Shown in pieces: positions 7,927 through 22,621 of a stretch of 64,000 nucleotides of DNA. The position numbers were made by a program, and so were the translations under genes. This DNA comes from Acidobacteriota bacterium (GTDB lineage: Bacteria > Acidobacteriota > UBA6911): contig JAAYCX010000010.1 of NCBI GenBank assembly GCA_012729555.1, forward strand, positions 62,001-126,000. Direction: 5' to 3'. The notes below the pieces were generated by a model. The model was given only the letters and a program-made list of their open reading frames with translations, ran no database searches and was not told the DNA's origin. Position 1 is the stretch's first letter; every line of letters starts with the position of its first letter.

Positions 7927-8025
7927 ATGGACAGGCACCCTTTGAACGAATCATGGACATCCACCATTTGAACCGATAGGTGGATGTCCATGATTTTTTG
8001 AACCGATAGGTGGATGTCCATGATT
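7927..8025 (+). repeat. REP-like palindromic repeat cluster, possible amtB terminator
   Basis: A perfect 17-base inverted repeat occupies 7949-7965 and 7979-7995 (13-base loop), followed by a run of T. A 28-base unit, TTGAACCGATAGG plus TGGATGTCCATGATT overlapping it, is present twice in tandem (7968-7995 and 7998-8025). An imperfect relative beginning TGGACAGGCACCC lies at 7929. The same GGACAGGCACC core recurs near 29956 and 29995, so this appears to be a dispersed family. In function it would end amtB transcription just before the activator gene. Confidence 0.7.
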
Positions 8026-8042
8026 CTGCTAACATGGGGGCC

Positions 8043-9848
8043 ATGACGGGAGAATACCGACCCACCACCGGTATCGCCGAGGTGGACAGGGCGATCGGCG
8101 GCGTGATCAGCGGCGACAACCTGGTCTGGGAGATCGATTCCGGCGTCGCCGGGGATCATTTCATCTCCAATTTCGTCGAAGCCTGCGAGGAGGGGGGGGT
8201 TCCCGTCGTCTATGTCAGTTTCAACCGCTCCCCCCAGACGATCGCCTCCAAATATGCCAAATTGATGACCTCGGGGCGATTCTCGCTCATCGATTGCTTT
8301 TCTTCCGGGAAGGGCAACTCCGACGAGGTGTTTCTGAAGTTTTTTGACGATCCCGCCCGGGATGCCGTGCATGCCCCGGTTCACATCGCCGATCCTGCGG
8401 ATCCCGCGCGCCTGGAACAGGCGATCGTCGAAGTCGGCACCCGCGGGGGGCAGTCGGCCAACTACATTTTCGATTCCCTCACGGGAATGCTCGATCTGTG
8501 GGGGGACGAAAACCGGGTAGTCCGCCTTTTCGGGCACCTCTGCCCGCGGCTCTACGACCTGAACACCCTCGCCTGCTGGCTCATTGAAAAGGAAGCCCAT
8601 ACCGAGGCGTTTCTCGCCAAGGTGCGCCACATCACCCAGGTGGTCATGGAGGTGTCGCTGCTCAACGGTCAGCGGGCGCTCACGGTCCGCAAGGCCGCCG
8701 GCCGCAACGCCGCGATCGGCATCCCCCAGCCCCTGGATTTCGACGAGAGCCGTTTCATCCAGGACGGCGAATTCCGGGGAGGGCGCCACGTCGACCGGAT
8801 GACGCGGCGCGGGGAGGCGCTGCGGCGTACTTACCGCGTCGACAGTATCGTGGGCGGGAGCGCGGCGATCCGGCGGCTGTTGGGACTGGCGGCGACCGCG
8901 GCTCGTTCGCGTTCCTCGGTTCTGATTACGGGCGAGACCGGAACCGGCAAGGAGCTGATCGCCAACGTGGTCCACTACAACAGCGACCGCGCCGCCGGCC
9001 CCCTGGTCAAGGTCAACTGCGGCGCGCTTCCCGAAAGCCTCCTGGAATCGGAGCTTTTCGGACACGTGAAGGGGGCCTTTACCGGAGCCGTCAGGGATTA
9101 CGAGGGGCGCTTCCGCGCGGCCGAAGGGGGGACCCTCTTCCTCGACGAGGTCAGCGAGATGAGCCCGCGGCTGCAGGTGAAGCTGCTGCGCGTGCTGCAG
9201 GAGCGGCAGCTGGAACCGGTCGGTTCCAGCCGGACCCTGGCGGTAGATGTCCGCATCGTCGCGGCCACCGGGATGGATCTGCGCGCCGAGATCAAGGCGG
9301 GGCGCTTCCGACAGGACCTGTTCTATCGACTGAACGTGATTCCCGTCCGCATTCCCCCGCTGCGCGAGCGGCGCGAGGATATCCCGCTGCTTGCGGACCA
9401 CTTTCTCGAAAAGTACAACCGCGAGGCCGGCCGGCGGGTCGGCCATATACCCAGAGAGGTCCTGGCCGTCATGCTCGCCCATGCCTGGCCGGGGAATGTC
9501 CGCGAACTGGAGAACTGTATCGAGCGGGCGGTGGTCATGAGCCCGGATGACACGATATCCCTGGACCTGCTCCCCGAGGAGATCAGGGAGAGCGTGCCCC
9601 CGGGTTCCGGGGGCGAGGCGGAATCCTCCCCGGATCCCCGATCCGAATTGCGCCGGGCGGTTCTGCAGTTCCTCGCCTCCCGCAAGGATCCCGCCGGTGT
9701 GCGTGCCCTCCTGCTGGAAACGGTTGAAGAGGCTTTGCTTCGGCGCCTGGTGGAATCGAATCTCTACAGCCAGCGTGAACTGGCCCAGATGCTTGACCTC
9801 AGCCGCGTAACGCTCCGAAAAAAACTGGCTCACTACGGGATCTCCTGA
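8043..9848 (+). CDS. Sigma-54-dependent transcriptional activator with degenerate KaiC/RecA-like N-terminal domain
   Basis: Enhancer-binding protein of about 601 residues. Residues 1-240 resemble a KaiC/RecA-type domain ([34 protein letters not shown]), but the Walker A position reads [11 protein letters not shown] and lacks the GKT/S, so nucleotide hydrolysis there is unlikely. The central AAA+ domain is complete: Walker A GETGTGKE (297-304), GAFTGA loop (344-349, contacts sigma-54), and Walker [10 protein letters not shown]. The C-terminus carries a Fis-type helix-turn-helix ([20 protein letters not shown]). The ATG at 8043 is preferred; an ATG at 8034 and a GTG at 8010 are alternatives, the latter inside the repeat. 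It lies between two sigma-54 promoters that it probably serves. The N-terminal domain presumably senses a ligand or partner, but which one is unknown. Confidence 0.9.
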
Positions 9849-9946: not shown

Positions 9947-9962
9947 TGTCCTGATTGGGACA
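9947..9962 (+). promoter_or_regulatory. Candidate enhancer (activator-binding) site
   Basis: The inverted repeat TGTCC-N6-GGACA lies about 130 bases upstream of the sigma-54 promoter at 10079, in an AT-rich region, at a typical distance for an enhancer-binding protein. The link to the neighbouring activator is inference. Confidence 0.35.
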
Positions 9963-10078: not shown

Positions 10079-10094
10079 TGGCACGCCCATTGCA
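10079..10094 (+). promoter_or_regulatory. Sigma-54 (-24/-12) promoter of the glutamate-synthase/Hdr/MetFV cluster
   Basis: TGGCACGCCCATTGCA is a perfect match to the sigma-54 consensus, including spacing. Transcription would start near 10106, about 33 bases before the ATG at 10139. The 290-base region between the activator gene and this operon is markedly AT-rich compared with its surroundings and holds no gene. Confidence 0.88.
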
Positions 10095-10138
10095 ATGCAA
10101 TTTGCGGTGTATGTTCACCCTGGCGAAAGGAAACTGCA

Positions 10139-10471
10139 ATGACGGATAAGCTTGCCTATCGAGGGCTTTGCGAGACCTGCGAGCATGACGCCACGTGCAT
10201 GCTGCACAGAAGCTCTCGGCTGGAAATCATTCAGTGCGAGGAGTTTTCCACCCGCCCGGCCGCAAGCCGCCCCCGTTCCCCCCTTGAGACCGGCGCGATC
10301 GAAGACCCGATGGACGCCTTCCGGATGGGGCTGTGCGCCAACTGTCTGAATGTGGCCGGCTGCGGATTTCCGAATGCGTGCAAAGGAGTCCTGCAGTGTG
10401 AGGAATACATCCTGGATGAGGCCGGAGCGGTCCCGCAGGCGAAGGCGGAAAATTCCAGGTCGGCGGCCTAG
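10139..10471 (+). CDS. Small protein with two tandem Cys4 motifs
   Basis: A 110-residue soluble protein and the first gene of the sigma-54-driven operon, with GAAAGGA before the ATG. It consists of two copies of the pattern C-x2-C-x5-C-x11/12-C-E-E-[F/Y]: first CETCEHDATC and later IIQCEEF, second CANCLNVAGC and later VLQCEEY, joined by a Pro/Arg/Ser-rich linker. Each unit could bind one zinc or iron-sulfur centre. I know similar small Cys proteins only as uncharacterised neighbours of redox genes in anaerobes. A scaffold, electron-carrier or redox-sensor role for the complex encoded downstream is inference from position. Confidence 0.8.
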   Translation: MTDKLAYRGLCETCEHDATCMLHRSSRLEIIQCEEFSTRPAASRPRSPLETGAIEDPMDAFRMGLCANCLNVAGCGFPNACKGVLQCEEYILDEAGAVPQAKAENSRSAA

Positions 10472-10493
10472 GTTCTGGATGGAGGAGGGGCGG

Positions 10494-11063
10494 TTGTCAA
10501 CCACCCGGGAAACCGATCGAATTGCATTGTTTGTGTGCGCCAATTGCGCGCGTCCCGGCAGGAAACCCACATCGGCTGAACGGGCTCGGCCGGTGATCCC
10601 GGGTTTCAACCTGCCGGGACGCGTGGATCGGGTGGTCCTCCCCTGCGCCGGGAGGCTCCAGCCCGAGCATGTCCTGAAGGCGTTCGAAGCCGGGTGCCGC
10701 GTCGTCAGCGTGGTGGCCTGCGAAGAACAGAACTGCCATCACGCCGAGGGAAGCCGCCGCTGCAGCCTGCGTGTGCAGTACGTCCGGTCGCTGCTGGAGG
10801 AAATCGGGTTGGGGGAGGGGCGGCTGGTCCTGGCGCATCTCCCCGGGTCGGCCCTGGAGGACCTGAAGGTGTCCGCAGGGAGGCCGGCGGCGGGGATATC
10901 CCCGGACGGCCCGGCCGCCCGCCTCGAGGGGATCCGGAAGGCAATCCTCGAGGCGCTCGGCGACTCCCCCCCGAATCCGCTCGCCGAGCCGGAGCCCGGC
11001 AGCGGGGCCGGCGCCGCGCGGGCGGAATCGCTCCCCCCCGGCGGGGGGGTGCGGCATGAATAG
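10494..11063 (+). CDS. MvhD/FlpD-like hydrogenase iron-sulfur subunit family protein (first copy)
   Basis: Protein of about 189 residues resembling MvhD, the small [2Fe-2S] subunit that passes electrons to HdrA in methanogens and in Hdr-linked complexes. It has the N-terminal CANC motif after a beta strand (ALFVCANCARPG), a second cysteine in VVLPCAGRLQPEHVLKAFEAG, and CEEQNCHH ... RRC, followed by YVRSLLEEIGLGEGRL, typical of the family. The C-terminal tail (about 45 residues) is low complexity. The TTG at 10494 is chosen because GGAGGAGGGG ends 3 bases before it; an in-frame ATG at 10479 overlaps that ribosome site. It overlaps the MetF-like gene by 8 bases, so the two are translationally coupled. 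Confidence 0.82.
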   Translation: MSTTRETDRIALFVCANCARPGRKPTSAERARPVIPGFNLPGRVDRVVLPCAGRLQPEHVLKAFEAGCRVVSVVACEEQNCHHAEGSRRCSLRVQYVRSLLEEIGLGEGRLVLAHLPGSALEDLKVSAGRPAAGISPDGPAARLEGIRKAILEALGDSPPNPLAEPEPGSGAGAARAESLPPGGGVRHE

Positions 11064-11970
11064 GTTCGGCAGGGCGCTCCTTTCGGGCCGGACGCTGGTG
11101 ACGGCCGAGTGCCTCCCTCCCCGGGGAGCCGACGCGGACGTCATGAGGGAGCTTTCCGCCTCGCTCCCCCGGGAACTGGACGGGATCGTGGTGCCGGACA
11201 ATCCCGACCGGGTGCGCGCATCGGCCCTTTCCTGCGGCGCCCTGCTGGCCAGGGAAAGGGGGAGGAGCGTCATCATGGCGATGACGTCGCGCGACCGGAA
11301 CCGCATCGGGCTGGTAAGCGACGCGCTCGGCGCCGCCGCCCTGGATATCGAGGCCATCCTGTGCCTGGGAGGGCGGCACCAGTCCTCGGGAATCGCGCCC
11401 GAGGCCGCTGCGGCCCGCGACCTCGACTCGATCCAGCTGACGCAGGCCCTGAAGAAAATGGCCCTCTACGGTTCCAGCATGAACGGCCGGAAACTGGAGC
11501 CCGAAATCAAGCTGCAGATCGGGGCGACGGCGAACCCCTACCTGCGCCCCCTGGACCTGAACCTGCTTCGGGTCAGGATGAAGGTCCACATCGGCGCGGA
11601 CTTCCTCTTTACCCACGCCGTCTTCGACCTGGACGGCTTCGGGCAATGGCTGGACGCCGTGCGCTCCCTGGGCCTGGACAAGCGCACCGCCATCATCGCG
11701 AGCGTGCTGCCGCTCGGAAGCGTGGAGCGGGCGCGCGAGCTCGACCGGAGCGGGATCTACGGCCCGGTCGGGGAAGGGGTGATCGCAAGGCTCGCCCGTT
11801 CGGCCGACCCCGTCAGGGAAGGAATCCTCATCGCCGCCGAGGTGGCGAAGAAACTGAAGGAACTCCCCGGCATCCGGGGGATCCACATCCTCTCGGGGGG
11901 AGCGGAGTCCCGGGCGGCCGAGGTCATGCGGCAGGCTGGGCTCCCGATGGTCCCGAGCCCCGCGAACTGA
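11056..11970 (+). CDS. Methylenetetrahydrofolate reductase-like protein (MetF family)
   Basis: A 304-residue flavin TIM-barrel protein of the MetF family, which reduces 5,10-methylene-THF to 5-methyl-THF in one-carbon metabolism. Seen in the sequence: LVTAECLPPRG with the conserved Glu (E18), MAMTSRDRNRIGL, AARDLDSIQLTQALKKM, and ADFLFTHAVFDLDGF near residue 195. The segment ILCLGGRH (102-109) carries Arg107 where MetF proteins usually have the folate-protonating Asp (Asp120 in E. coli; alignment from memory), so activity on the usual substrate is uncertain. In acetogens MetF pairs with MetV and Hdr/MvhD proteins, and all of these are encoded in this operon. Confidence 0.82.
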   Translation: MNRFGRALLSGRTLVTAECLPPRGADADVMRELSASLPRELDGIVVPDNPDRVRASALSCGALLARERGRSVIMAMTSRDRNRIGLVSDALGAAALDIEAILCLGGRHQSSGIAPEAAAARDLDSIQLTQALKKMALYGSSMNGRKLEPEIKLQIGATANPYLRPLDLNLLRVRMKVHIGADFLFTHAVFDLDGFGQWLDAVRSLGLDKRTAIIASVLPLGSVERARELDRSGIYGPVGEGVIARLARSADPVREGILIAAEVAKKLKELPGIRGIHILSGGAESRAAEVMRQAGLPMVPSPAN

Positions 11971-11981
11971 AGAGAGCCGGA

Positions 11982-13436
11982 ATGCCCGATCGCTACCACA
12001 TCCATACTGTTCCGACCCCGGGAAGGTTTTACCGGACCGGCAAGTTCGGCGGCATCGACTGGCGCGAGGACTGCTCGCGTTGCGCCAACTGCGTCAAGCT
12101 CCGCTGCTGCTTCGACGTGTACGCCCACGAGGGGGTCCATAACCGGGATCCGCTGGCGCCCATCGGGACCCTGAACGAATGCAAGGCGTGTTTCTCCTGC
12201 GTCCAGGGGTGTACGAAAGGGCTGCTCAGCCTCTCGGTCAACCCGGAATTCCTGGAGATGGGAGACGATTACTGGACGCCCGATATCCTCCTCTCCACCT
12301 GGAACCAGGCCGATTCCGGCAAGATCCCGGTTTCCGGAGCGGGATATCGCGGGCGGTTTCACGGTCCCGGGTTCGATTCCATCTGGACCGACATGTCCGA
12401 AATCGTCCGCCCGACGCGCGACGGCATCCACGGCCGGGAGTATATCTCGACCTCGGTAGACATCGGCCCGAAGCCGATGCGCCTCTGCTTCTCCCCCGAG
12501 GGCAGGCTGCTTTCGCCGCCCGCCGAGCTGCTGGAGCTGCAGCTCCCCGCCGTCCTGGACCTCGATCCCCGGATCGATTCGAATTCGCGTCTGGCGCGCG
12601 CGCGCGCCATGGCCGCCAGGGATCTCAGGACCGTCGCGATGGTCGCCGCCGCGGAAGCGGCGGGACTGAGTCCCGATCTCCGGCCCTTCGTGGTCCCCGT
12701 CTTCCGTGGCGGGGACGCGCCGGAGCTCGGGGCGATCGAAGCCGTGGACAGGATGGCGGAACTCGTCGACGGGCCGGGCCTCATAGCCCTGGCCGAGGCG
12801 GTCCGCGCGGCGACGCCCGGGGCGATTCTCTCGATCCGCCTCCGGCTGGCTCCCGGAACCGGCGATCGGGTCATGGCCCTTTTCCGCGCGGGGTTCCGGG
12901 TATTCCATCTCTCGGCGGACCTGCACGGGCGCATGCAGGGGGAGGACGGTTCCGCCGGTCCGCATATCAAGGACGCGCTCCGCGTCATCCATGGGGACCT
13001 GGTCGGCGCGGGGGTGCGCGACGAGGTCACCCTGATCGTTTCCGGGGGGATCGCGCTGGCCGAACATATGGCCAAATCGATCCTGTGCGGCGCGGATCTC
13101 GTGGGCGTGGATACGGCGCTCTCCGTTGCCCTCGGCTGCCGGGTCTGCCGCGGAAACGGTCCGCTCCAGGGGGAGGCGGGGGGGGACGGTGCCGCTTCGT
13201 CCTGCAGCCGGTGCCCGGCGGGGATCGACGGGGCGGATGCCGCCTACGCCGCCCGGCGGATGGTCAACCTGATGGGCGCCTGGCACAGCCAGCTGATCGA
13301 GGTGCTGGGGGCCATGGGGATCCGGGAGGTGCGCCGCCTGCGGGGGGAGATGGGGCGCGCCATCTTCATGGAGGAGATTGAAAAGGAGGCCTTCGGCGAC
13401 CTGCTGCGCGTCACCGGAGGGCAGGGCGTCGCATGA
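11982..13436 (+). CDS. Divergent glutamate-synthase FMN-domain paralogue with N-terminal 2x[4Fe-4S] ferredoxin module
   Basis: A 484-residue protein. Residues 31-43 (CSRCANC ... CC) and 67-77 (CKACFSCVQGC) form two ferredoxin-like cysteine sets. The C-terminal third matches the end of the GltS FMN barrel (DEVTLIVSGGIALAEHMAKS, CGADLVGVDTALSVALGC, then a Cys-rich stretch and MVNLMGAWHSQLIEVLGAMG). The middle, however, lacks the NSFSCTGEGG and GSYGGTGA loops that its neighbour has for FMN and substrate. It shares the WTPDILLSTWNQA block with that neighbour, so the two are paralogues. It is probably a non-catalytic, electron-transferring partner. The ATG at 11982 lies 11 bases after the metF-like stop. 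Confidence 0.75.
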   Translation: MPDRYHIHTVPTPGRFYRTGKFGGIDWREDCSRCANCVKLRCCFDVYAHEGVHNRDPLAPIGTLNECKACFSCVQGCTKGLLSLSVNPEFLEMGDDYWTPDILLSTWNQADSGKIPVSGAGYRGRFHGPGFDSIWTDMSEIVRPTRDGIHGREYISTSVDIGPKPMRLCFSPEGRLLSPPAELLELQLPAVLDLDPRIDSNSRLARARAMAARDLRTVAMVAAAEAAGLSPDLRPFVVPVFRGGDAPELGAIEAVDRMAELVDGPGLIALAEAVRAATPGAILSIRLRLAPGTGDRVMALFRAGFRVFHLSADLHGRMQGEDGSAGPHIKDALRVIHGDLVGAGVRDEVTLIVSGGIALAEHMAKSILCGADLVGVDTALSVALGCRVCRGNGPLQGEAGGDGAASSCSRCPAGIDGADAAYAARRMVNLMGAWHSQLIEVLGAMGIREVRRLRGEMGRAIFMEEIEKEAFGDLLRVTGGQGVA

Positions 13437-13506
13437 CCGAAGGGTCCTGCGTCGGTTGGATGCCCCCGGTCCCGGGCGGTTCGCGGGGCCTTCGGCATCA
13501 TCGGGC

Positions 13507-13678
13507 ATCCTTACAGGGCGGATGGCTTTGCCGGAATCGACATCAGATGCCTCGCCGGCTCGAGCTATTTCCCGGACCGTTCAGGGTCAGCTCCTTCCTG
13601 AACCGGCGGGGGAAAATAGCCGGGCGCGAGCCGGCGAGCCGCTGCTGGCGGGCGGCAGGCCAAATGCCCTGTAAGGAT
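13507..13678 (+). repeat. 172-base imperfect hairpin with 13-base terminal inverted repeats
   Basis: This fills most of the 315-base gap inside the operon (13437-13751). The ends are exact inverted repeats (ATCCTTACAGGGC at 13507-13519; complement at 13666-13678). Inside are further nested pairs: CTCGCCGGCTCG (13551-13562) with 13627-13638, GCTATTTCCC (13564-13573) with GGGAAAATAGC (13610-13620), and CCGTTCAGG with CCTGAACCGG around an apical loop near 13590. It could be a MITE-like insertion or a structured leader/attenuator before the next gene. No convincing coding sequence is present. Confidence 0.7.
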
Positions 13679-13751
13679 CCGGGGGCCCCGGCATCCCGCG
13701 CGTGCGGATCGTCGGGGCCCTTCAAGAGTAATGTTTAGCACAGGTGAGGGT

Positions 13752-15344
13752 ATGACGACAACCATTGCCGAAGCCAGGATACCCCGCGAGCCGTATCCCG
13801 CGGAATCTCCCGCCGGTTATCCCCGGGAGAAGGTCTCCCGCGAGGTGCGTCCCGCCCCCGAGCGCTACCGCAACGCCATCGGCAAATACCGGATCACGCG
13901 CTCGGCGGGCTGCGACTCCTGCGGGCTGTGCGTGGAAGCCTGTGCCCGCGGGGTTCACATCAAGCCGGAGGCGTATGCCCTGGTCTGGCGGCCGGAGGAC
14001 CACCGCTGCATCGGGCCCTCCTGTGCGGAGAGCGGGGATTCGTGCATCAGCCGCTGCCCGAGGCAGGCGCTGTCGCTTCGGCTGAACCCTGACGTGGAGT
14101 GCCTCGGAGATCCGCGCTGGACCGCCGACCTGATCCTTTCCACCTGGCACCAGGCGGAAACCGGCCACCGCCCCCCGGCCCACCTCGAGTACCGCCACGG
14201 CGACTCGGGCGGGGGATTCGACCGGATCCGCTTCCGCTTCGAGGTGCCGGGGGCCGCCCCGGGCGGATCCCTCCGTGCGGCCGAAGGGAACTCCGACGGC
14301 GCGGCGCCGGCGGGCCGCCGGATCGATCTCGGCCTGGACCTGAACCGCCGCGGCGACGGCCGCCCGCAGGTCCACGTCGACATCCCCGTCTACGGCGGGG
14401 GGATGAGCTTCGGATCGGTGAGCATCCACACGATCCTGGCCAAGGCGCGCGCGGCCGCGGCCTGGAACAGCTTCAGCTGCACCGGCGAGGGGGGGTACCC
14501 GGACCGCCTCCACCCCTACGACGACCACATGATCACCCAGGTGGCGACGGGTCTTTTCGGCGTGCGCGAGGAGACCATCCAGAGGGTGCGCATAGTGGAG
14601 TTCAAGTACGCCCAGGGGGCCAAGCCGGGGCTGGGAGGCCACCTCCTCGGGGACAAGAACACCCCGGCCGTGGCCCGCATGCGCGGTGCGGTCCCCGGAA
14701 ACGCCCTGTTCAGCCCGTTTCCGTTTCACAGTGTCTACAGCGTGGAGGACCACAAGAAGCACCTGGACTGGATCAAGGAGATGAATCCCTGCTGCCTGGT
14801 CAGCGTCAAGGTGTCCACCCCCACCGACGTGGACATGGTGGCGGTGGGGAGCTACTATGCCGGGGCCCACATCATCCATCTCGACGGCAGCTACGGCGGG
14901 ACCGGCGCCGCGCCCGACATCGCCAAGAAGAACATCGCCATGCCGATCGAGTACGCGATCCCCAAGGTCCACAGGTTCCTCGTCGATGAGGGGATCCGGG
15001 AGAAGGTGACCCTCATCGCCTCCGGCGGTATCCGCACGGCCCACGACTGCCTGAAGGCCATCGCCCTGGGGGCCGACGGGGTGGTGATCGGAACCGCCGA
15101 AATGGTGGCCCTCGGCTGTGTCCGCTGCGCCTGCTGCGAAAGCGGGCGCGGGTGCCCGCGCGGGATCGCCCCCACCGACCCGGAACTCGTCGGGCTGGTG
15201 GATCCCGACTGGGCGACGCAGAGGCTCGTCAACCTCCAGAACGCATGGCACGAAGAGATGCTGGCCGTCCTGGGACGGCTGGGCATGGCCTCGATCCGCG
15301 ACCTGCGCGGACGGAGCGACCTCCTCTGCCTTCTCTCGGATTGA
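13752..15344 (+). CDS. Glutamate synthase central/FMN domain protein with ferredoxin module (archaeal-type GltB)
   Basis: A 530-residue catalytic subunit candidate for glutamate synthase (2-oxoglutarate plus ammonia to glutamate on FMN). The N-terminus has C54, C57, C60 and C64 and a second set at C86, C91, C98 and C102. The FMN barrel is complete: VYGGGMSFGSVS, NSFSCTGEGGYPDRL, LVSVKVSTPTDVDMVAVG, DGSYGGTGAAPDIAKKN, TLIASGGIRTAHD, ADGVVIGTAEMVALGC, followed by the Cys-rich CVRCACCESGRGCPRGI that matches the 3Fe-4S site. It lacks amidotransferase and GXGXG domains, which are supplied by the next gene. The ATG at 13752 follows AGGTGAGGG; an upstream in-frame ATG at 13731 is less likely. Confidence 0.9.
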   Translation: MTTTIAEARIPREPYPAESPAGYPREKVSREVRPAPERYRNAIGKYRITRSAGCDSCGLCVEACARGVHIKPEAYALVWRPEDHRCIGPSCAESGDSCISRCPRQALSLRLNPDVECLGDPRWTADLILSTWHQAETGHRPPAHLEYRHGDSGGGFDRIRFRFEVPGAAPGGSLRAAEGNSDGAAPAGRRIDLGLDLNRRGDGRPQVHVDIPVYGGGMSFGSVSIHTILAKARAAAAWNSFSCTGEGGYPDRLHPYDDHMITQVATGLFGVREETIQRVRIVEFKYAQGAKPGLGGHLLGDKNTPAVARMRGAVPGNALFSPFPFHSVYSVEDHKKHLDWIKEMNPCCLVSVKVSTPTDVDMVAVGSYYAGAHIIHLDGSYGGTGAAPDIAKKNIAMPIEYAIPKVHRFLVDEGIREKVTLIASGGIRTAHDCLKAIALGADGVVIGTAEMVALGCVRCACCESGRGCPRGIAPTDPELVGLVDPDWATQRLVNLQNAWHEEMLAVLGRLGMASIRDLRGRSDLLCLLSD

Positions 15345-15394
15345 CGGCGCGGCCGGTCCGCGCCGGGAAAACGGATTATGGGAAGGAAACGTCA

Positions 15395-18004
15395 GTGAAA
15401 GATACAGCCCGACAGCTGCTGGCCACACGGTCGAGGATCTACCGCGGCCCCGGGTCCCCCCGTCCGGTCAAATCGGCCGAAGAGGGGGGATGCGGTGTGA
15501 CCGGTTTCGCCTGCACCGAGCCGCTGGCGGGACGCTTCATCTACGAGCCTTCAGCCCAGATGCAGAACCGGGGGAACGGCAAGGGAGGGGGAATCGCCGC
15601 CGTCGGCCTGACCCCCGAACAGATGGGGGTCCCGCGTGCGGTGCTGGACGAAGCCTACCTGCTGCAGCTCGCGCTCATCGATCCCGGCTGCCACGCGGAC
15701 CTCGAACGGCGCTTCGTCCTGCCGAATTTCGACGTCCTCCTCTCCGTCCGGCAGCCGCACCTGGACGATTACCGCGACGTCCCGGGACTGGAGGTGCGCC
15801 CGCCGGACGTGCACCGCTACGTCGTGCGCCCGAAACCCCTCCTGCTCGCGGAGTTCGCGCGGCAGAACGGCCTGGAAGCGCTGGCACCGCGCGACCTCGA
15901 GGACGAGTTCGTCTGGCGCAACTCCTACCGCATCAACGATGAATACTATGCCTCGCTCGGGGAGAAGCGCGCCTTCGTGCTGTCGCACGGCAGGGACCTG
16001 CTGGTTTTCAAGCTGGTCGGATACGCCGAGCAGAATGTCGAGTATTACCGGCTCCGGGATTTCAAGGCCCACGCGTGGATCGCACACCAGCGCTATCCCA
16101 CGAAAGGGCGGGTATGGCACCCCGGCGGCGCGCACCCGTTCGTGGGGGTCAACGAGGCCCTGGTCCACAACGGCGACTTCGCCAATTACTGGTCCGTCAG
16201 CGAATACCTGCGCCAGCGCAACATCCGCCAGCAGTTTCTGACCGACACCGAAGTATCGGCGCAGCTCTTCGATCTCTGGGACCGCGTCTACAAGTACCCG
16301 CTGGAATACATCATCGAGGCCCTGGCGCCCACCTCGGAGCTCGACTTCGACGAGCTGCCGCCCGAGAAGCAGGCCATCTACCGGCAGATCCAGGCGGCGC
16401 ACATCCATGCATCGCCCGACGGCCCCTGGTTTTTCATCATCGCCCGCAGCCAGCCGGATCGGAAGAGGGTCCAGCTGCTCGGCATCACCGACACCGCGAT
16501 GCTCCGGCCTCAGGTGTTCGCCCTCTCGGACAACGATGACGTCCAGATCGGCCTGATCTGCTCGGAGAAGCAGGCGATCGACGCCACACTGCGGAGCCTT
16601 GCCCGGGAGGACGCGCGCTTCTGCCCGGTGGCGGACAGGTACTGGAACGCGCGGGGCGGGTCGAGCACCGACGGCGGCGCCTTCATCTTCTCGGTCGATT
16701 CGGACGGCGACGGGGGGCGGCGGCTCACCTGCGCCGACAAATTCGGCCGGCCGGTCGAACTCCGCACCGGCCGGGTGCGGTGTGACCTCCTTACCCCGGA
16801 AGAGGACTCCCGGCCCGCCCCCGAAGCCCTGCGGGAACTGGTGTCCCGGTACCTGCAGAAGGGGGACGTCGAGGCGCTCTGGTCCCACGTCCTGGACCTC
16901 CCCACCTGGTCGCCCGGGGACCTCAAGCGCTTCTGCGGCCTCGTCGTCGAAGGGGCGGATACGGCCAAGGCGCGCATGACGGCCGTCCGGCTCCTCACCC
17001 TCCTGCGGGACCGGCGGTTCGACACGGGTGACAAGCGCCGCGCCGGCGTGATCCAGGTCGCGGACCGGTCGCTGGAGGCGCTGTTCGATTCCGCCCCCCT
17101 TTTCGGCCGTCCGGCCAGCCGCTACTGGCGCCGCGTCGACCGGGCGACGCGCCACCTCCTTGCCCCCCCGAGGGCGGGGGAGGAGGTCCTGGTCGTCGAC
17201 AGTGAAGGTTTCCCCCCCGAGGGGGACGATTGCGACGCCCTCCTGCTGCGCGAGGCCTACCAGGCCGGCTGGAGGCGCTTTGTCGTCTACCGCCTGCGCG
17301 GCCAGCGCTTTCACGGCGCCGGTTTCGGGCCGGGCACGGACGGGGTGAGGATCGACCTGTACGGGTCCTCCGGCGACTACACCTCGAGCGGGATGGACGG
17401 GATGGAGATCCATATTCACGGCAACGCCCAGGACCAGGTGGCGCAGATCGCCAAGGGGGGGCGGCTGGTGATCCACGGCGACGTGGGGCAGACCTTCATG
17501 TACGGCGCCAAGGGGGGGGAGGTGTTCGTGCTCGGCAACGCCGCCGGGAGGCCCCTGATCAACGCCGTGGGGAGCCCCCGCGTGGTCATCAACGGGACCT
17601 GCCTCGATTTCCTGGCCGAGTCTTTCATGGCGGGGGACCCCCTCACCGGCGGGGGCTTCGTCGTTCTCAACGGCATGGAGTTCGACGCCCGCGCGCGTCT
17701 CGTCCCGCAAAGGACCCCTTATCCCGGGGGCAACCTCTTTTCGCTCGCCAGCGGCGGCGCCATCTACATCCGGGACCCCGGACGCCGGATCATCGAACGG
17801 CAGCTCAACGGGGGGGGGATCGCACCGATCGACGACCGCGACTGGAGTCTGATCCTGCCCTTCCTGGAGGAAAACGAGGCGCTTTTCGGAGTTCGCGTGC
17901 GGGACCTGCTGACGGTGGACGGCCGGGAGCGGGCCCCGCGGGACGTGTACCGCAAGGTCAGCGCCGTGCGGCTTTCGGTCCTGGCCGGATCGAAAGCCAG
18001 GTGA
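15395..18004 (+). CDS. Class II glutamine amidotransferase - GXGXG (glutamate synthase alpha C-terminal) fusion
   Basis: An 869-residue protein that supplies the missing parts of the glutamate synthase. The N-terminal class II amidotransferase domain has EEGGCGVTGF with the nucleophile candidate Cys33, AHQRYPTKGRVWHP, and FVGVNEALVHNGDFANYW. The C-terminal GXGXG beta-helix has GMEIHIHGNAQDQV, LVIHGDVGQTFMYGAKGG and VFVLGNAAGRPLINAVG. The middle 300 residues link the two. Class II enzymes need an N-terminal Cys, so a 32-residue propeptide would have to be removed if this is an active glutaminase. GTG at 15395 follows GGAAGGA. The predicted role is to release ammonia from glutamine and channel it to the FMN subunit encoded upstream. 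Confidence 0.88.
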   Translation: MKDTARQLLATRSRIYRGPGSPRPVKSAEEGGCGVTGFACTEPLAGRFIYEPSAQMQNRGNGKGGGIAAVGLTPEQMGVPRAVLDEAYLLQLALIDPGCHADLERRFVLPNFDVLLSVRQPHLDDYRDVPGLEVRPPDVHRYVVRPKPLLLAEFARQNGLEALAPRDLEDEFVWRNSYRINDEYYASLGEKRAFVLSHGRDLLVFKLVGYAEQNVEYYRLRDFKAHAWIAHQRYPTKGRVWHPGGAHPFVGVNEALVHNGDFANYWSVSEYLRQRNIRQQFLTDTEVSAQLFDLWDRVYKYPLEYIIEALAPTSELDFDELPPEKQAIYRQIQAAHIHASPDGPWFFIIARSQPDRKRVQLLGITDTAMLRPQVFALSDNDDVQIGLICSEKQAIDATLRSLAREDARFCPVADRYWNARGGSSTDGGAFIFSVDSDGDGGRRLTCADKFGRPVELRTGRVRCDLLTPEEDSRPAPEALRELVSRYLQKGDVEALWSHVLDLPTWSPGDLKRFCGLVVEGADTAKARMTAVRLLTLLRDRRFDTGDKRRAGVIQVADRSLEALFDSAPLFGRPASRYWRRVDRATRHLLAPPRAGEEVLVVDSEGFPPEGDDCDALLLREAYQAGWRRFVVYRLRGQRFHGAGFGPGTDGVRIDLYGSSGDYTSSGMDGMEIHIHGNAQDQVAQIAKGGRLVIHGDVGQTFMYGAKGGEVFVLGNAAGRPLINAVGSPRVVINGTCLDFLAESFMAGDPLTGGGFVVLNGMEFDARARLVPQRTPYPGGNLFSLASGGAIYIRDPGRRIIERQLNGGGIAPIDDRDWSLILPFLEENEALFGVRVRDLLTVDGRERAPRDVYRKVSAVRLSVLAGSKAR

Positions 18005-18033
18005 ACGGGCCCGGCATGCGTACGGAGGAATCG

Positions 18034-21000
18034 ATGATGGGGAGCGGTCGCGCGCGGCCCGGGGGCGTGGGGGCGGTGCTGGTCTGGGGCTCGGGCGGCG
18101 CCGGGATCCAGGCGGCGCTCGACCTGGCCGAAAGCGGTTTCCGGACGGTTCTGGTCGAAGCGGGCGCCGCCATCGGCGGCCGCGCGGCCCGGTCCGACGA
18201 CACGCTGTCGGGGGGCGATTGCGCCATGTGCCTTCTTTCCCCCAGGCTGGCGGAATGCGCCCGGAACCGGAACATCGAGATCCTCACCCTCGCCGACGTC
18301 CTGGAGGTTTCGGGGGAGCCGGGGCGCTTCCGGGTCAGGATCCGCCGGAACCCCCGCTGCGTGGACTCGGAGAAATGCGACGGTTGCGGCAACTGCGCCG
18401 CCGTCTGCCCCGTGACCCTTCCCGCGGCGCCGGGGGAGGAGGCGCTCAAGGCGATTTGGCGCCCGTGGCCTCAGGCGATCCCCAACGTCTTTTCGATCTC
18501 CCGGGTCGAGGGTGCCGCCCCCTGCAGGGCCGCCTGCCCGGCGGGGGTCAATGTCCCGGGATTCCTCTCGCTCTTCGGGGCCGGAAGGCTCGAGGCGGCG
18601 CACGCGCTGCTGCTCGACCGGTGCCCCTTTCCGGGCACGAGCGGCCGCATCTGTCGGCGCCCCTGTGAAAAAGCATGCCGCCGCGGCGGGGGGGACGGCG
18701 CGGTGACCGTCGGCGACCTGGAGCGATCGGTGGCCGACGCCGTGGCCTCCGCGGAGAGGGCACCGTCGCCGGCGGCGCCTTCGCCGGTGGGGGAAGGGGC
18801 GGCCGGGACCCGGGCGCGGGTGGCCGTCATCGGGGGCGGGCCGGCGGGCCTGGTCGCCGCCCGGGACCTTGCGCTCGCCGGCTACCGGGTGACCCTGTTC
18901 GAGGCGCAGCCCCTTCTGGGCGGGATGCTGCGTTACGGGGTCCCCCCGTTCCGGTTGCCGCGGGAGGTTCTCGACCGGGAAATCGGCGCCCTCCTCCCGC
19001 CGGGGCTCGAGGTGCGTCCCTCCACCCGGATCGACAAACCCGCCGGGCTGCTGGCCGCGCGGGGCGGGGCCTTCGGCGCCGTCTTCCTGGCCTGCGGCGC
19101 CTGGGGCGGGCGCAGGATGGGTATTCCGGGCGAGGGGGCGGAGGGGGTGTGGCAGGCGGTGGACTACCTGCGGGCTTCGAATTCGGGATCCCCGGCCGCC
19201 ATCGGTCCCGGCGTGCTGGTGATCGGCGCTTCCGACCTGGCCCTGGACGCGGCCCGCACCGCCCTGCGGGCGCCGGGGGTGCGGACCGTCACCCTGGCGT
19301 GCCTGCACGGGCGGGGGGAGGTTCCGGTCGACGGCGGGAGGCTTGCGCTGGCGGCAGGGGAAGGGGTGAGGGTGGAGTACGGGCTCGGCCCGACGCGGGT
19401 GAACACCCTTGAGGGAAGGGTGGTCTCGGTCTCCTTCCGGGCCTGCACCAGCGTCTTCGACGAGCATGGGAGTTACGACCCGCTTTACGACGACGCCGCG
19501 ACGCGCACCCTCGGCGCCGATACCGTCATCCTGGCTTCCGGGCGCGGGGTGGAGGCCGCGGGATACGCTCTCGAGCGGCGTCCCGGGGGGCGCCTGCTGG
19601 CGGACCCGGTGACGGGCGCCACCCCTGTCCAGGGGATCTTCGCCGGGGGGGACGCGGTCCTGGGACCCGCTTCGCTGCCGGAAGCGATCGCCCAGGGGAG
19701 GCGCGCGGCCGAGAGCATGGACGCCTGGCTGAGGCGGAACGCCCCGATCCGGGAGGCCGACGCCGTGGGGCTTGCCGGAGCGGGCCAGCGGCATCCCCTT
19801 CCGATGGCGCCGGGCCCCGCGCCGGCCGGCCCGCGGGCCGGGAGCCGGGAGGCGGAGGAGGCGCGCCGTTGTTTGAACTGCGGATCCTGCAGCGAATGCG
19901 GGCTTTGCATCGCCGCCTGTTCGGCGGGGGCGATCGACCTTTTCCAGGCGCCGTCCGAATCGGAAATCGAGGTGGGGGGTGTGATCGTCGCCCCTGAAGA
20001 AACCGAAGCGCCGGCGTGGAAGGAACTGGCCGCGCGGATCGGCCTGGACCCCGACATCCCCGGACTCCCGGCCGAACCCGTGCGGACCCGGCTGCCGGGA
20101 GTCTACGCGGCCGTCGGCCGGGGGAGGGAGATCGCCGCGGCCGTCACCCGGGGCTCCGCGGCCGCCGCCTGCGCCATGGAGCAGCTGGCTTCCGTGCGGG
20201 GCACCCTGGCCCGGCCGCGCTCCTACCCATGGGAGCGGGACGTGACCGACGAGGAGGCGCGCATCGGGGTCTTTGTCTGCCGGTGCGGGCACCAGGTCGC
20301 CCGGGCGGTCGATGTGGCCGAAGTGTGCCGGTCCGTTTCCGCCCTCGAGGGGGTGCGGTGCGTCGAGGCGCTCGAATATTCCTGTTCCGACTCCGGCCTG
20401 CGGAGGATCAAGCGCAGGATCGGCGAGCACCGCCTGAACCGGGTGGTGGTGGCTTCCTGCTCCTCCCGGACCTACGAGGCCCTGTTCCAGGAGGTTCTCC
20501 GCGAGAGCGGGCTGAACCGGTGCCTCCTGGCGACGGCCAACATCCGGGAAGAATGCGCCTGGGTCCACGGGGGGGATGGCGGAGCCACCCGGAAGGCGGT
20601 CGACCTGGTGACGATGGCGGCGGCCCGGGCCCGGCATCTGCACCCCCTGCCGCCGGTGGGACTTCCGGTGACGGCCTCCGCCCTGGTGCTCGGGGGAGGG
20701 CGCTCCGGGATGACGGCGGCCCTGAGCCTCGCGGACCAGGGATTCGGCGTCCACCTCGTGGAGCGGTCGGGCGCCCTGGGAGGGGGGGCGCGACGCCCCG
20801 GCCCGGGAGAGGGGGCCGCCGGCGACCGGGTGAGCGGGCTGGTCGACCGGGTGACGGCGCACCCCGGGATCACCCTCCACCTCGACTCGGAGCTCGCGGC
20901 GATAGCGGGGCAGGCGGGGGATTTCACCTGCCGCCTGACCGTTTCCGGCTGGGGGAGGGTGACGCTCGCGGCCGGGGCGGTGATCGTGGCCACGGGTCCG

Positions 21001-21468
21001 GGGGGGGAGAACGGGGCCCTTGCCGCGAAGCTCCGCGTGGCGCTCGGGGAAGACGGCGGTTTCCGGCCGGCGCACCCGGTGCTGCGGCCGGTGGACCTGG
21101 TCAACGAGGGACAGTTTTTCTGCACCGCGCCGCACCCGTCCCCGGTCCGGGAGAGGGTGCTCCGGGCGCGGGCCGCGGCGTCGCGCGCGGCCACGATCCT
21201 GTCGAAGCCGCAGCTGGAAATCGCCGGGCATGCGGCCTCGGTGAATCCCGTCTTCTGCGTCGCCTGCGGCACGTGTGTCCAGCTCTGCCCCTACGGCGCA
21301 CCCGTTATCGGCGAAGGGCGCAAGGCCGCCGTCCAGGGGGTCAAATGCGCCGGGTGCGGCAGTTGCGTGGCCTGCTGCCCCCGGCGCGCCATCACCCTGC
21401 GGCGGGAGGAGAGCGGGACGGTGACGGCGATGCTCGACCAGTTGCTGGCCGCGGGAGGGGGGTATTGA
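18034..21468 (+). CDS. HdrA-type flavoprotein with GltD (glutamate synthase small subunit) module nested inside
   Basis: A 1144-residue iron-sulfur flavoprotein. Order: HdrA-like FAD domain (VLVWGSGGAGIQAALDLAES, about 13-32) with the first ferredoxin set C115-C125; GltD-type N-terminal Cys domain (APCRAACPAGVNVPGF, about 162); GltD FAD domain (VAVIGGGPAGLVAARDLALA, about 262) and pyridine-nucleotide domain (VLVIGASDLALDAARTAL, about 395, altered from GGGD); ferredoxin set from C613 (CLNCGSCSECGLCIAAC); HdrA core again (IGVFVCRCG near 744, VVASCSSRTYEALF near 806, ALVLGGGRSGMTAALSLADQ near 883); two C-terminal clusters (CVACGTCVQLCP, CAGCGSCVACCP). GGAGG at 18024 supports the ATG at 18034. 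It probably moves electrons between NAD(P)H, ferredoxin and the GltS and MetFV partners; whether it bifurcates is untested. Its stop overlaps the next start. Confidence 0.88.
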   Translation: MMGSGRARPGGVGAVLVWGSGGAGIQAALDLAESGFRTVLVEAGAAIGGRAARSDDTLSGGDCAMCLLSPRLAECARNRNIEILTLADVLEVSGEPGRFRVRIRRNPRCVDSEKCDGCGNCAAVCPVTLPAAPGEEALKAIWRPWPQAIPNVFSISRVEGAAPCRAACPAGVNVPGFLSLFGAGRLEAAHALLLDRCPFPGTSGRICRRPCEKACRRGGGDGAVTVGDLERSVADAVASAERAPSPAAPSPVGEGAAGTRARVAVIGGGPAGLVAARDLALAGYRVTLFEAQPLLGGMLRYGVPPFRLPREVLDREIGALLPPGLEVRPSTRIDKPAGLLAARGGAFGAVFLACGAWGGRRMGIPGEGAEGVWQAVDYLRASNSGSPAAIGPGVLVIGASDLALDAARTALRAPGVRTVTLACLHGRGEVPVDGGRLALAAGEGVRVEYGLGPTRVNTLEGRVVSVSFRACTSVFDEHGSYDPLYDDAATRTLGADTVILASGRGVEAAGYALERRPGGRLLADPVTGATPVQGIFAGGDAVLGPASLPEAIAQGRRAAESMDAWLRRNAPIREADAVGLAGAGQRHPLPMAPGPAPAGPRAGSREAEEARRCLNCGSCSECGLCIAACSAGAIDLFQAPSESEIEVGGVIVAPEETEAPAWKELAARIGLDPDIPGLPAEPVRTRLPGVYAAVGRGREIAAAVTRGSAAAACAMEQLASVRGTLARPRSYPWERDVTDEEARIGVFVCRCGHQVARAVDVAEVCRSVSALEGVRCVEALEYSCSDSGLRRIKRRIGEHRLNRVVVASCSSRTYEALFQEVLRESGLNRCLLATANIREECAWVHGGDGGATRKAVDLVTMAAARARHLHPLPPVGLPVTASALVLGGGRSGMTAALSLADQGFGVHLVERSGALGGGARRPGPGEGAAGDRVSGLVDRVTAHPGITLHLDSELAAIAGQAGDFTCRLTVSGWGRVTLAAGAVIVATGPGGENGALAAKLRVALGEDGGFRPAHPVLRPVDLVNEGQFFCTAPHPSPVRERVLRARAAASRAATILSKPQLEIAGHAASVNPVFCVACGTCVQLCPYGAPVIGEGRKAAVQGVKCAGCGSCVACCPRRAITLRREESGTVTAMLDQLLAAGGGY

Positions 21469-21956
21469 TGCCGCCGGACCGGCTGGAGCGTCGAGACGGA
21501 GAAACCCGGACGGTGCAGCCGCCAGGCTGGGAGCCGGAGATCCTCGCCTTCTGCTGCAGTTACTGCGCCTCGGCCGCGGCCGCGGAGGCGGGAGCCGTCC
21601 GGCTGCGGTACCCGGCGGGCACCCGCATCCTGTCCACCCCCTGTACCGGCGCGATCGAAATGGAGCATCTGCTCGAGGCTTTCGAGAAGGGGGCCGACGG
21701 GGTCCTGGTCATCGGGTGTCCCGAGGGGGGGTGCCATTTCGTGGAAGGAAACCGGCGGGCGCTCAGGCGGCTGGAAAGGGTCCGGGAGCTGCTGGACGAG
21801 ATCGGCCTGGGCGGCGGGCGGCTGCGGAGGGCCCAACTCTCCGATTCCATGGCCTCGGCGTTCGCGGGGCAGATGCGGGAGATCACCGAAACAGTCCGGG
21901 CGATGGGGCCGAATCCCCTGAAGCCCGCAAGAAAAGAAAGCGCAGGGAGATCATGA
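21468..21956 (+). CDS. MvhD/FlpD-like iron-sulfur subunit family protein (second copy)
   Basis: A 162-residue member of the MvhD-like family, paralogous to the protein encoded at 10494-11063. It shows EILAFCCSYCASAAAAEAG, then ILSTPCTGAIEMEHLLEAFEKG, VLVIGCPEGGCHFVEGN and RVRELLDEIGLGGGRL. The cysteines CSYC, C(T), C(P) and C(H) are those expected to hold the [2Fe-2S] cluster. The start ATG shares its first base with the upstream stop (TGATG), and its own stop overlaps the metV-like start (ATGA), so the HdrA-GltD, MvhD and MetV proteins are translationally coupled and likely form one complex. In known systems MvhD contacts HdrA. Confidence 0.87.
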   Translation: MPPDRLERRDGETRTVQPPGWEPEILAFCCSYCASAAAAEAGAVRLRYPAGTRILSTPCTGAIEMEHLLEAFEKGADGVLVIGCPEGGCHFVEGNRRALRRLERVRELLDEIGLGGGRLRRAQLSDSMASAFAGQMREITETVRAMGPNPLKPARKESAGRS

Positions 21957-22621
21957 TCGTCGCTTCACCCAAATCGATAACGGAGCTCAAAACCATCCTC
22001 GCCGGCCACCGGAAGGTCCTCTTCGTGGGATGCGGCACCTGCGTGACGGTGTGCCTGGCCGGGGGGGAACGGGAGGTCGGCATCCTCGCCTACGCGATGC
22101 GCATGGCGCGCCGCCTCGACAAGAACCCGGTCGAGATCTCCCAGGTCACCATCGAGCGCCAGTGCGACAACGAGTTCCTGAAGGACCTGGCCGAACCGGC
22201 ATCCGGGGTGGAGGCCATCGTCTCCTTCGGTTGCGGCGCCGGGGTCCAGGCCATCGCGGAGCGGTTTCCGGACAAGCCGGTCTACGCCGGGCTCGACACC
22301 CAGTTCCTCGGGATCCTGGAGGGTCAGGCGGTCTGGACCGAGAAGTGCCTCGGGTGCGGCAGCTGCATGCTGGCGCATTTCGGCGGCATCTGCCCCATCA
22401 CCCGGTGCGCCAAGCGGCTGCTCAACGGCCCCTGCGGCGGTTCGCTCGAGGACCGCTGCGAGGTCGACCCGGAAAAGCCGTGCGCCTGGCAGCTGATTTA
22501 TAAAAGGCTCAAGGCCATCGGCCAGCTCGACCGCCTCGAGGAGATCGTTCCCCCCAAGGACTGGAGCACCGCCTGGTACGGCGGCGCGCGCAGGGTCGTG
22601 CGCCGCGACCACCAGGTCTAG
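21953..22621 (+). CDS. MetV-like protein (methylenetetrahydrofolate reductase C-terminal domain family)
   Basis: A 222-residue Cys-rich protein of the family that partners MetF in acetogens (MetV) and links it to an electron-donating complex. It has VLFVGCGTCVTVCLAGGERE at residues 20-40, VSFGCGAGVQAIAERFPDKP in the middle, then KCLGCGSCMLAHFGGICP and CAKRLLNGPCGGSLEDRC, the zinc/iron-sulfur ligand block of the family, ending CAWQLIYKRLKAIGQL. It begins within the preceding gene (ATGA overlap). It is the last gene of the sigma-54 operon; its stop overlaps the stop of a convergent gene. The presence of MetV together with a MetF-like gene supports a real MetFV-type unit. Confidence 0.87.
   Translation: MIVASPKSITELKTILAGHRKVLFVGCGTCVTVCLAGGEREVGILAYAMRMARRLDKNPVEISQVTIERQCDNEFLKDLAEPASGVEAIVSFGCGAGVQAIAERFPDKPVYAGLDTQFLGILEGQAVWTEKCLGCGSCMLAHFGGICPITRCAKRLLNGPCGGSLEDRCEVDPEKPCAWQLIYKRLKAIGQLDRLEEIVPPKDWSTAWYGGARRVVRRDHQV

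Follow-up and report, generated by a model that had tools for sequence, protein, structure and literature searches.

The methylene-tetrahydrofolate (methylene-THF) reductases built on a MetV-MetF module have been classified into types 2S, 3S, 6S and X, with the module placed on varied electron partners, and the MetFV of Clostridium ljungdahlii accepts reduced ferredoxin as electron donor but not NAD(P)H, as given in the available part of Yi et al. 2021 (PMC8515935). The fusion of HdrA with GltD is also a known protein type, HdrL, going by the available part of PMC2702500. A stretch of 64,000 nucleotides from an Acidobacteriota bacterium (contig JAAYCX010000010.1, positions 62,001 to 126,000), referred to here as the window, was analysed, in which modules of these kinds stand next to glutamate synthase genes in an operon of nine genes, all on the + strand in one run at 10139–22621. 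This operon probably encodes a second, nitrogen-regulated split (archaeal-type) glutamate synthase, in which the MetF, MetV, MvhD and HdrA parts, otherwise familiar from acetogens and methanogens, would serve as an electron-input platform.

The predicted glutamate synthase core and the gene layout

Gene assignments were made by matches to Pfam and NCBIfam profiles, among which CysP was the only gene without a family match. The abbreviations used are FMN (flavin mononucleotide), GATase (glutamine amidotransferase), GltS (glutamate synthase) and MTHFR (methylene-THF reductase).

10139–10471, + strand: CysP, a small cysteine-rich predicted protein with two repeats (open frame)
10479–11063, + strand: MvhD1, FlpD-family iron-sulfur subunit (PF02662, E 5e-21)
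11056–11970, + strand: MetF-like protein with MTHFR fold (PF02219, E 2e-12)
11982–13436, + strand: GltB1, ferredoxin domain and non-catalytic FMN-domain paralogue (Glu_synthase, E 9e-9, C-terminal part only)
13731–15344, + strand: GltB2, ferredoxin domains and catalytic glutamate synthase FMN domain (PF01645, E 6e-89; PDB 2vdc/1ea0, E 1e-50)
15395–18004, + strand: GATase-GXGXG fusion, glutaminase and beta-helix domain (PF13522, GATase_6; PF01493, E 2e-12)
18034–21468, + strand: reduced HdrL, HdrA with GltD nested at residues ~158–570 (NF040770, E 3e-139, and GltD models)
21468–21956, + strand: MvhD2, FlpD-family iron-sulfur subunit (PF02662, E 1e-40)
21953–22621, + strand: MetV with NGPCGG motif (PF12225, the MetV C-terminal domain, E 3e-37)

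In 75 of 75 relatives, GltB2 has retained both motifs of the FMN domain, GAKPGxGG and GGTGA. The GATase-GXGXG protein carries an invariant Cys33, the class II glutaminase cysteine that follows the propeptide, within the motif EGGCG, which was conserved across relatives together with NRGNGKGGG, HxRYPT, HNGDF and TDTE. The FMN-domain motifs, the glutaminase cysteine and the GXGXG domain expected of a split (archaeal-type) glutamate synthase were all found, on three separate chains, and the single GltB chain with a central domain (PF04898) that characterizes canonical GltBD was absent; in the window, PF04898 matched no full domain and overlapped only weakly and in part with the GltB2 FMN domain. 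Sequence and gene context indicate that the GltB1-GltB2-GATase/GXGXG triad is likely a glutamate synthase. Since the host also encodes a canonical GltB with GltD adjoining, the operon would represent its second such enzyme.

Comparison of GltB1 with GltB2 by hhalign gave a probability of 100 (E 2e-48), and the predicted model of GltB1 (predicted local distance difference test, pLDDT, 80) matched the FMN domain of Azospirillum brasilense GltS (1ea0 residues 788–1166) with Z 22.5, root-mean-square deviation (rmsd) 3.3 and 302 aligned residues, while both the GAKPGxGG and the GGTGA motif were missing in 60 of 60 sequences. On the profile and the model, GltB1 is a true, degenerate paralogue of GltB2 with the GltS FMN-domain fold. 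The notion that GltB1 substitutes for the GltS central domain was not supported, as model and profile match the FMN domain. A near-invariant block at GltB1 residues ~116–157 (12327–12452), GAGYRGxFxGxGFDSxWTDMSEIVRPTRDGIHGREYIST, was present in all relatives and had no counterpart of this form in GltB2; model confidence was low there.

The initial annotation had described a one-strand operon in the order listed above, and this was confirmed for all nine genes, with profile matches behind each assignment except CysP. Its further description of the genes as mostly overlapping was generous: overlaps occur at three of the eight junctions, and the other five are gaps, four of 7–50 bp and one of 294 bp (13437–13730, between GltB1 and GltB2). 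The 294-bp gap contains a 101-aa frame of doubtful coding value; a gap of ~250 bp separates the two genes in the sister species G004, and they lie close together or overlap in G008.

The HdrL, MetF and MetV subunits

The HdrL of the window has 1144 aa, compared with 1490 aa in the full-length form at locus L049, where HdrC and HdrB are also encoded. Relative to L049, each of its two HdrA halves has an in-frame deletion at the corresponding position, 164 residues in one and 156 in the other. When aligned with solved HdrA, it lacks a counterpart of residues ~330–505, where L049 aligns, and the deleted cores include the Cys-rich segment CVGSR...YCS..CC. In the GltD part, the NAD(P)-binding motif GGGN/D is changed to GASD. 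HdrB and HdrC are missing from the window operon and present in type A relatives, whose gene order is MvhD-MetF-triad-HdrC-HdrB-HdrL-MvhD-MetV.

A series of HdrL forms was found within the genus: G001 has a full-length protein without HdrB and HdrC, G008 has one core deleted, the window and G004 have both deleted, G005 is further reduced, and three sister species (G003, G007 and G009) have neither HdrL nor MvhD2. The occurrence of the same deletions in both the window and G004 speaks against an error of assembly. In the GATase tree, which is unrooted, the genus was grouped with type A relatives (Shimodaira-Hasegawa-like approximate likelihood ratio test, SH-aLRT, 99 for 13 rows), and because the genus sits nested within a clade containing type A, reduction from a full type A operon appears to be the simplest reading of the series.

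The MetF model (pLDDT 90) had its best match in the MTHFR of Thermus thermophilus (Z 29.0, rmsd 2.9, 279 aligned). Asp120 is important for folate reduction, as seen in Escherichia coli MTHFR mutants. Alignment with E. coli MetF, the numbering of which is used here, showed that Asp120 is replaced by Arg and Gln183 by His in the window protein and that Glu28 is kept; a structure of MTHFR with Asp120Ala is available (6pey). Wherever MetF and MetV form a pair, MetF retains all three of Glu28, Asp120 and Gln183, with Asp120 present in 22 of 22 loci of this arrangement; of 25 loci with MetF separated from MetV, 22 have lost Asp120. The association of Asp120 loss with MetV position (Fisher test, 2e-10) reflects shared ancestry in part, with only 2–3 pairs available as sign-test contrasts. 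On the tree, the MetF/MetV arrangement changed three times and the Asp120 residue five times, so that there are few independent tests. MetV of the window shares 81–97% identity with its counterparts in the other operons of the genus.

Three further MTHFR matches were found in the host, two beside MetV and one fused, and another, better-scoring MTHFR was present in nearly all type A genomes checked. No match to CdhC/acetyl-CoA synthase was found in the 98.9%-complete host genome, and a Wood-Ljungdahl context in the host was rejected on that ground; two sister species have a CdhC match.

Distribution, nitrogen neighbours and the sigma-54 promoter

An alignment of GATase-GXGXG was scanned over ~85,000 species and yielded at least 525 relatives; the tree rows and gene maps cover mostly the best 80 loci of these at least 525 relatives, with 13 named phyla represented. 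The operon is carried by seven of the nine other species of the genus, and the triad was found in nearly all mapped loci whose contig reaches far enough. The conservation of gene order across genomes, on which the initial annotation depended, held both within the genus and in the 13 phyla, far above chance. Occurrence in the phylum of the window is patchy (17 of 297 genomes). Besides type A, a type C with the order MvhD-MetV-MetF-triad was recognized, as well as forms in which the triad stands with MvhD alone or with a GlcD-type FAD (flavin adenine dinucleotide)/4Fe-4S protein. In the last of these (L041, L090 and L124), MvhD/MetVF is replaced by the GlcD-type FAD protein with its 4Fe-4S domain, which lies ahead of the triad and constitutes a different electron-input module. 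The fullest gene set encountered (L059 and L072) has MetV-MetF upstream of the triad and HdrC-HdrB-HdrL-MvhD-MetV-MetF downstream, and adjoins AmtB-GlnK-GlnA.

Canonical GltB (PF04898, E<1e-100) was found in 10 of 15 type A genomes and in none of 20 genomes sampled from the non-A forms, for which no completeness figures were reported; in these, PF04898 gave no match or a weak partial one of the sort that the FMN domain itself yields. The association with operon type (Fisher test, 2e-5) is partly due to shared ancestry and offers only 2–3 pairs as sign-test contrasts, and the lack of canonical GltB in non-A genomes is strong as a pattern, not genome by genome.

Genes for AmtB, GlnK or GlnA (glutamine synthetase) lie within 13 kb of the operon in 16 of the 49 loci with room for them, and CarA is near several. 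In the window, the following features lie upstream of the operon.

6588–7919, + strand: AmtB ammonium transporter (PF00909, E 2e-116; start codon approximate, open frame from 6408)
8010–9848, + strand: sigma-54-dependent activator (PF00158, Sigma54_activat, AAA+, E 4e-68; HTH_8)
10079–10094, + strand: sigma-54 promoter with -24/-12 elements, TGGCACGCCCATTGCA, a perfect consensus 44 bp ahead of the first start codon

When both strands were searched, this promoter was the sole full-consensus sigma-54 match in the whole window. Similar sites at about the same position were found in five sister species (L034, L035, L036, L037 and L040), and, the window included, a sigma-54-like site stands just ahead of CysP in six of the eight operon-bearing genomes of the genus. 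The activator consists of an N-terminal KaiC/RecA-like part, the AAA+ Sigma54_activat domain and a Fis-type helix-turn-helix; in L034, L035, L036 and L040 an orthologue is found ahead of the operon, and AmtB is also near the operon in L034 and L040. No terminator-like site was found on the + strand between 9849 and 22800. The promoter and the activator gene suggest that the operon is sigma-54-dependent. Both the sigma-54-type operon and the link to nitrogen assimilation put forward in the initial annotation are consistent with these observations and with the AmtB, GlnK and GlnA genes beside relatives.

The sigma-54 promoter was rejected as a family-wide trait, since only one weak, distant site (L088) was detected outside the genus of the window. 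The dyad TGTCCN6GGACA at 9947, upstream of the operon, is not conserved and was rejected as an activator site. A relative of the KaiC-like activator (phmmer ~700 bits) lies upstream of the operon in the Planctomycetota loci L097 and L110, in which no sigma-54 site was found ahead of the operon despite this relative. CysP, which carries two similar cysteine-rich repeats (GLCxxCxxxxxC...CEEF/Y), is kept at the head of the operon in relatives within the genus of the window and was seen there only.

Proposed function and comparison with described systems

In the proposed enzyme, the GATase half would hydrolyse glutamine and feed ammonia to GltB2, which, with its FMN and iron-sulfur clusters, would reduce 2-iminoglutarate, itself formed when the released ammonia reacts with 2-oxoglutarate, so that two glutamates result. 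GltB1 may be a non-catalytic partner of GltB2 that provides iron-sulfur clusters and structure. MvhD1, MetF and MetV would form the electron-input platform, recruited from a complex resembling MetVF/HdrABC-MvhD, with MetF in this lineage a putative flavin-carrying or structural subunit that is no longer a methylene-THF reductase. The reduction of C. ljungdahlii MetFV by ferredoxin makes MetV/MetF a plausible ferredoxin port and points to ferredoxin as the most likely donor where HdrL is lacking; reduced ferredoxin would probably serve in the sister species that lack HdrL. The shortened HdrL appears to keep mainly the GltD-type FAD/NAD(P)H part and the ferredoxin domains, and with MvhD2 it probably adds an entry for pyridine nucleotides (NAD(P)H). 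This proposal is favoured by the finding that many genomes (the 20 sampled non-A ones) have no glutamate synthase other than the triad that could be detected, and by the loss of Asp120 and Gln183 from MetF while MetV has stayed highly conserved. The intact catalytic motifs of GltB2 and GATase, the nitrogen-assimilation genes nearby, the upstream activator, the sigma-54-like sites of the genus and the stepwise reduction of HdrL also speak for it. Several points weigh against it: co-transcription of the subunits need not mean that they assemble; the retained Glu28 of MetF leaves room for some folate chemistry; the drift of the GltD part to GASD weakens the NAD(P)H-entry proposal and makes that route less secure; the host has its canonical GltBD, so that the role of the second enzyme is deduced from regulation and neighbours alone; and the relatives in which canonical GltB was missing have genomes of unreported completeness.

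The initial annotation had proposed coupling to one-carbon metabolism and Hdr-type electron transfer, neither of which was supported at this locus. The methylene-THF/methyl-THF couple lies below the glutamate synthase couple on general thermodynamic grounds, which agrees with a scheme in which MetF oxidises methyl-THF to supply the glutamate synthase, or else passes electrons on to methylene-THF. In addition, the couple is placed at -200 mV, above NAD+/NADH, in the available part of PMC8515935, and many Desulfobacterota, Chloroflexota and other bacteria have, next to the triad, a MetV-MetF with fully kept Glu28, Asp120 and Gln183. Because the window MetF has lost MTHFR active-site residues, such coupling is unlikely at this locus, and the loss of Asp120 in 22 of 25 loci with MetF unpaired to MetV, the other MTHFR matches and the missing CdhC match in the host also speak against it; as an explanation of the operon it is improbable. 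Similarly improbable is a flavin-based bifurcating (or confurcating) glutamate synthase, in which exergonic iminoglutarate reduction would drive ferredoxin reduction by NAD(P)H via HdrA, with HdrBC and MvhD as relays, even though the commonest Hdr-bearing form (~20 loci) has the full HdrC-HdrB-HdrL-MvhD-MetV beside the triad, bifurcation occurs with HdrA homologues of methanogens and has been proposed for HdrABC-MvhD-MetFV of Moorella (PMC6085437). At the window, bifurcation is disfavoured and unlikely because the operon lacks HdrB and HdrC and its HdrA has lost both cores by in-frame deletion; HdrL is wholly missing in three sister species. It is conceivable, though not likely, that in relatives of the window type C, with intact MetV-MetF, or type A, with full HdrC-HdrB-HdrL, couples glutamate synthesis directly to methyl-THF oxidation or to ferredoxin-making flavin-based bifurcation, and that in the lineage of the window the coupling was dismantled and the subunits were kept as an electron conduit.

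Alternatively, the split glutamate synthase might be co-transcribed with a distinct oxidoreductase derived from MetF/MetV/MvhD/Hdr simply because the cell needs both at the same time, without the two making up one complex. The partners are replaceable, as shown by loci in which MvhD alone or a GlcD-type FAD/4Fe-4S protein accompanies the triad, but the linkage is tight, ordered and recurrent over the 13 phyla, and MetF is retained in the operon with decayed MTHFR residues in genomes having other MTHFRs, so that co-location alone seems rather unlikely. Finally, N-methylglutamate synthase (MgsABC) uses the same three-domain set, and the triad might be such a related amidotransferase-flavin enzyme. 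This is highly improbable, given that the triad is the only glutamate synthase candidate in the 20 genomes without canonical GltB, that GlnA, AmtB, GlnK and CarA stand beside it in many loci, and that its glutaminase motifs are intact.

The proposed glutamate synthase bears on how glutamate is made, and with which reductant, in anaerobes without GltBD, a matter that is poorly characterised as far as was found. The operon, conserved over 13 phyla, offers a defined protein set to purify and assay, and the forms that occur in nature, ranging from complete HdrCBA over a partial HdrA to its absence, show what is dispensable and hence where bifurcation or one-carbon coupling could be targeted. It also carries a warning for annotation, as a metF, metV or hdrA gene in this setting need not mean methylene-THF reduction or heterodisulfide reductase.

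As stated in the initial annotation, no described system with this combination is known: no description of a glutamate synthase joined to MetVF/Hdr was found in the open-access literature, although subscription papers could hold one, and in the available parts of the sources none of the nearest described systems combines the catalytic subunits of a glutamate synthase with MetVF or Hdr. The HdrABC-MvhD-MetFV complex of Moorella thermoacetica, a 6S-type methylene-THF reductase, has MetF, MetV, MvhD and HdrA modules in common with the operon, and HdrB/HdrC too in type A. In the window, MetV and MvhD are present, and HdrB/HdrC, intact HdrA cores and the MetF residues Asp120 (the catalytic Asp) and Gln183 are not; the Moorella complex has no glutamate synthase in the available part of its description. 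The use of MetV-MetF as a module on varied electron partners is shared with the MetFV classification of Yi et al. 2021 (PMC8515935), the available part of which holds no glutamate-synthase-linked type. HdrL of Desulfobacterium autotrophicum HRM2 shares the fusion of HdrA with a glutamate-synthase-small-subunit-type domain, followed by mvhD as in the window, but as far as the available part of PMC2702500 extends it lies beside other redox genes such as dsrABC, without catalytic glutamate synthase subunits, and unlike it the window HdrL has lost 164 and 156 residues and with them the HdrA cores.

NADPH-dependent GltBD (A. brasilense, E. coli and also the host) has the catalytic FMN domain, the glutaminase, GXGXG and a GltD-type domain in common with the operon, in which these are split and rearranged, without the central domain and with additional MetF, MetV, MvhD and GltB1. 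The archaeal-type split GltS and the putative F420-dependent FGltS I/II, as described in the available parts of PMC3448663 and PMC9012536, share a separate FMN-domain subunit and a swapped electron-input subunit, which is an FrhB-type F420H2 dehydrogenase in FGltS I/II and MvhD/MetF/MetV/HdrL in the window; in addition, the window has GATase fused to GXGXG and a second, degenerate GltB1. In conclusion, the operon appears to be a widespread, apparently undescribed variant of glutamate synthase and not a new category.

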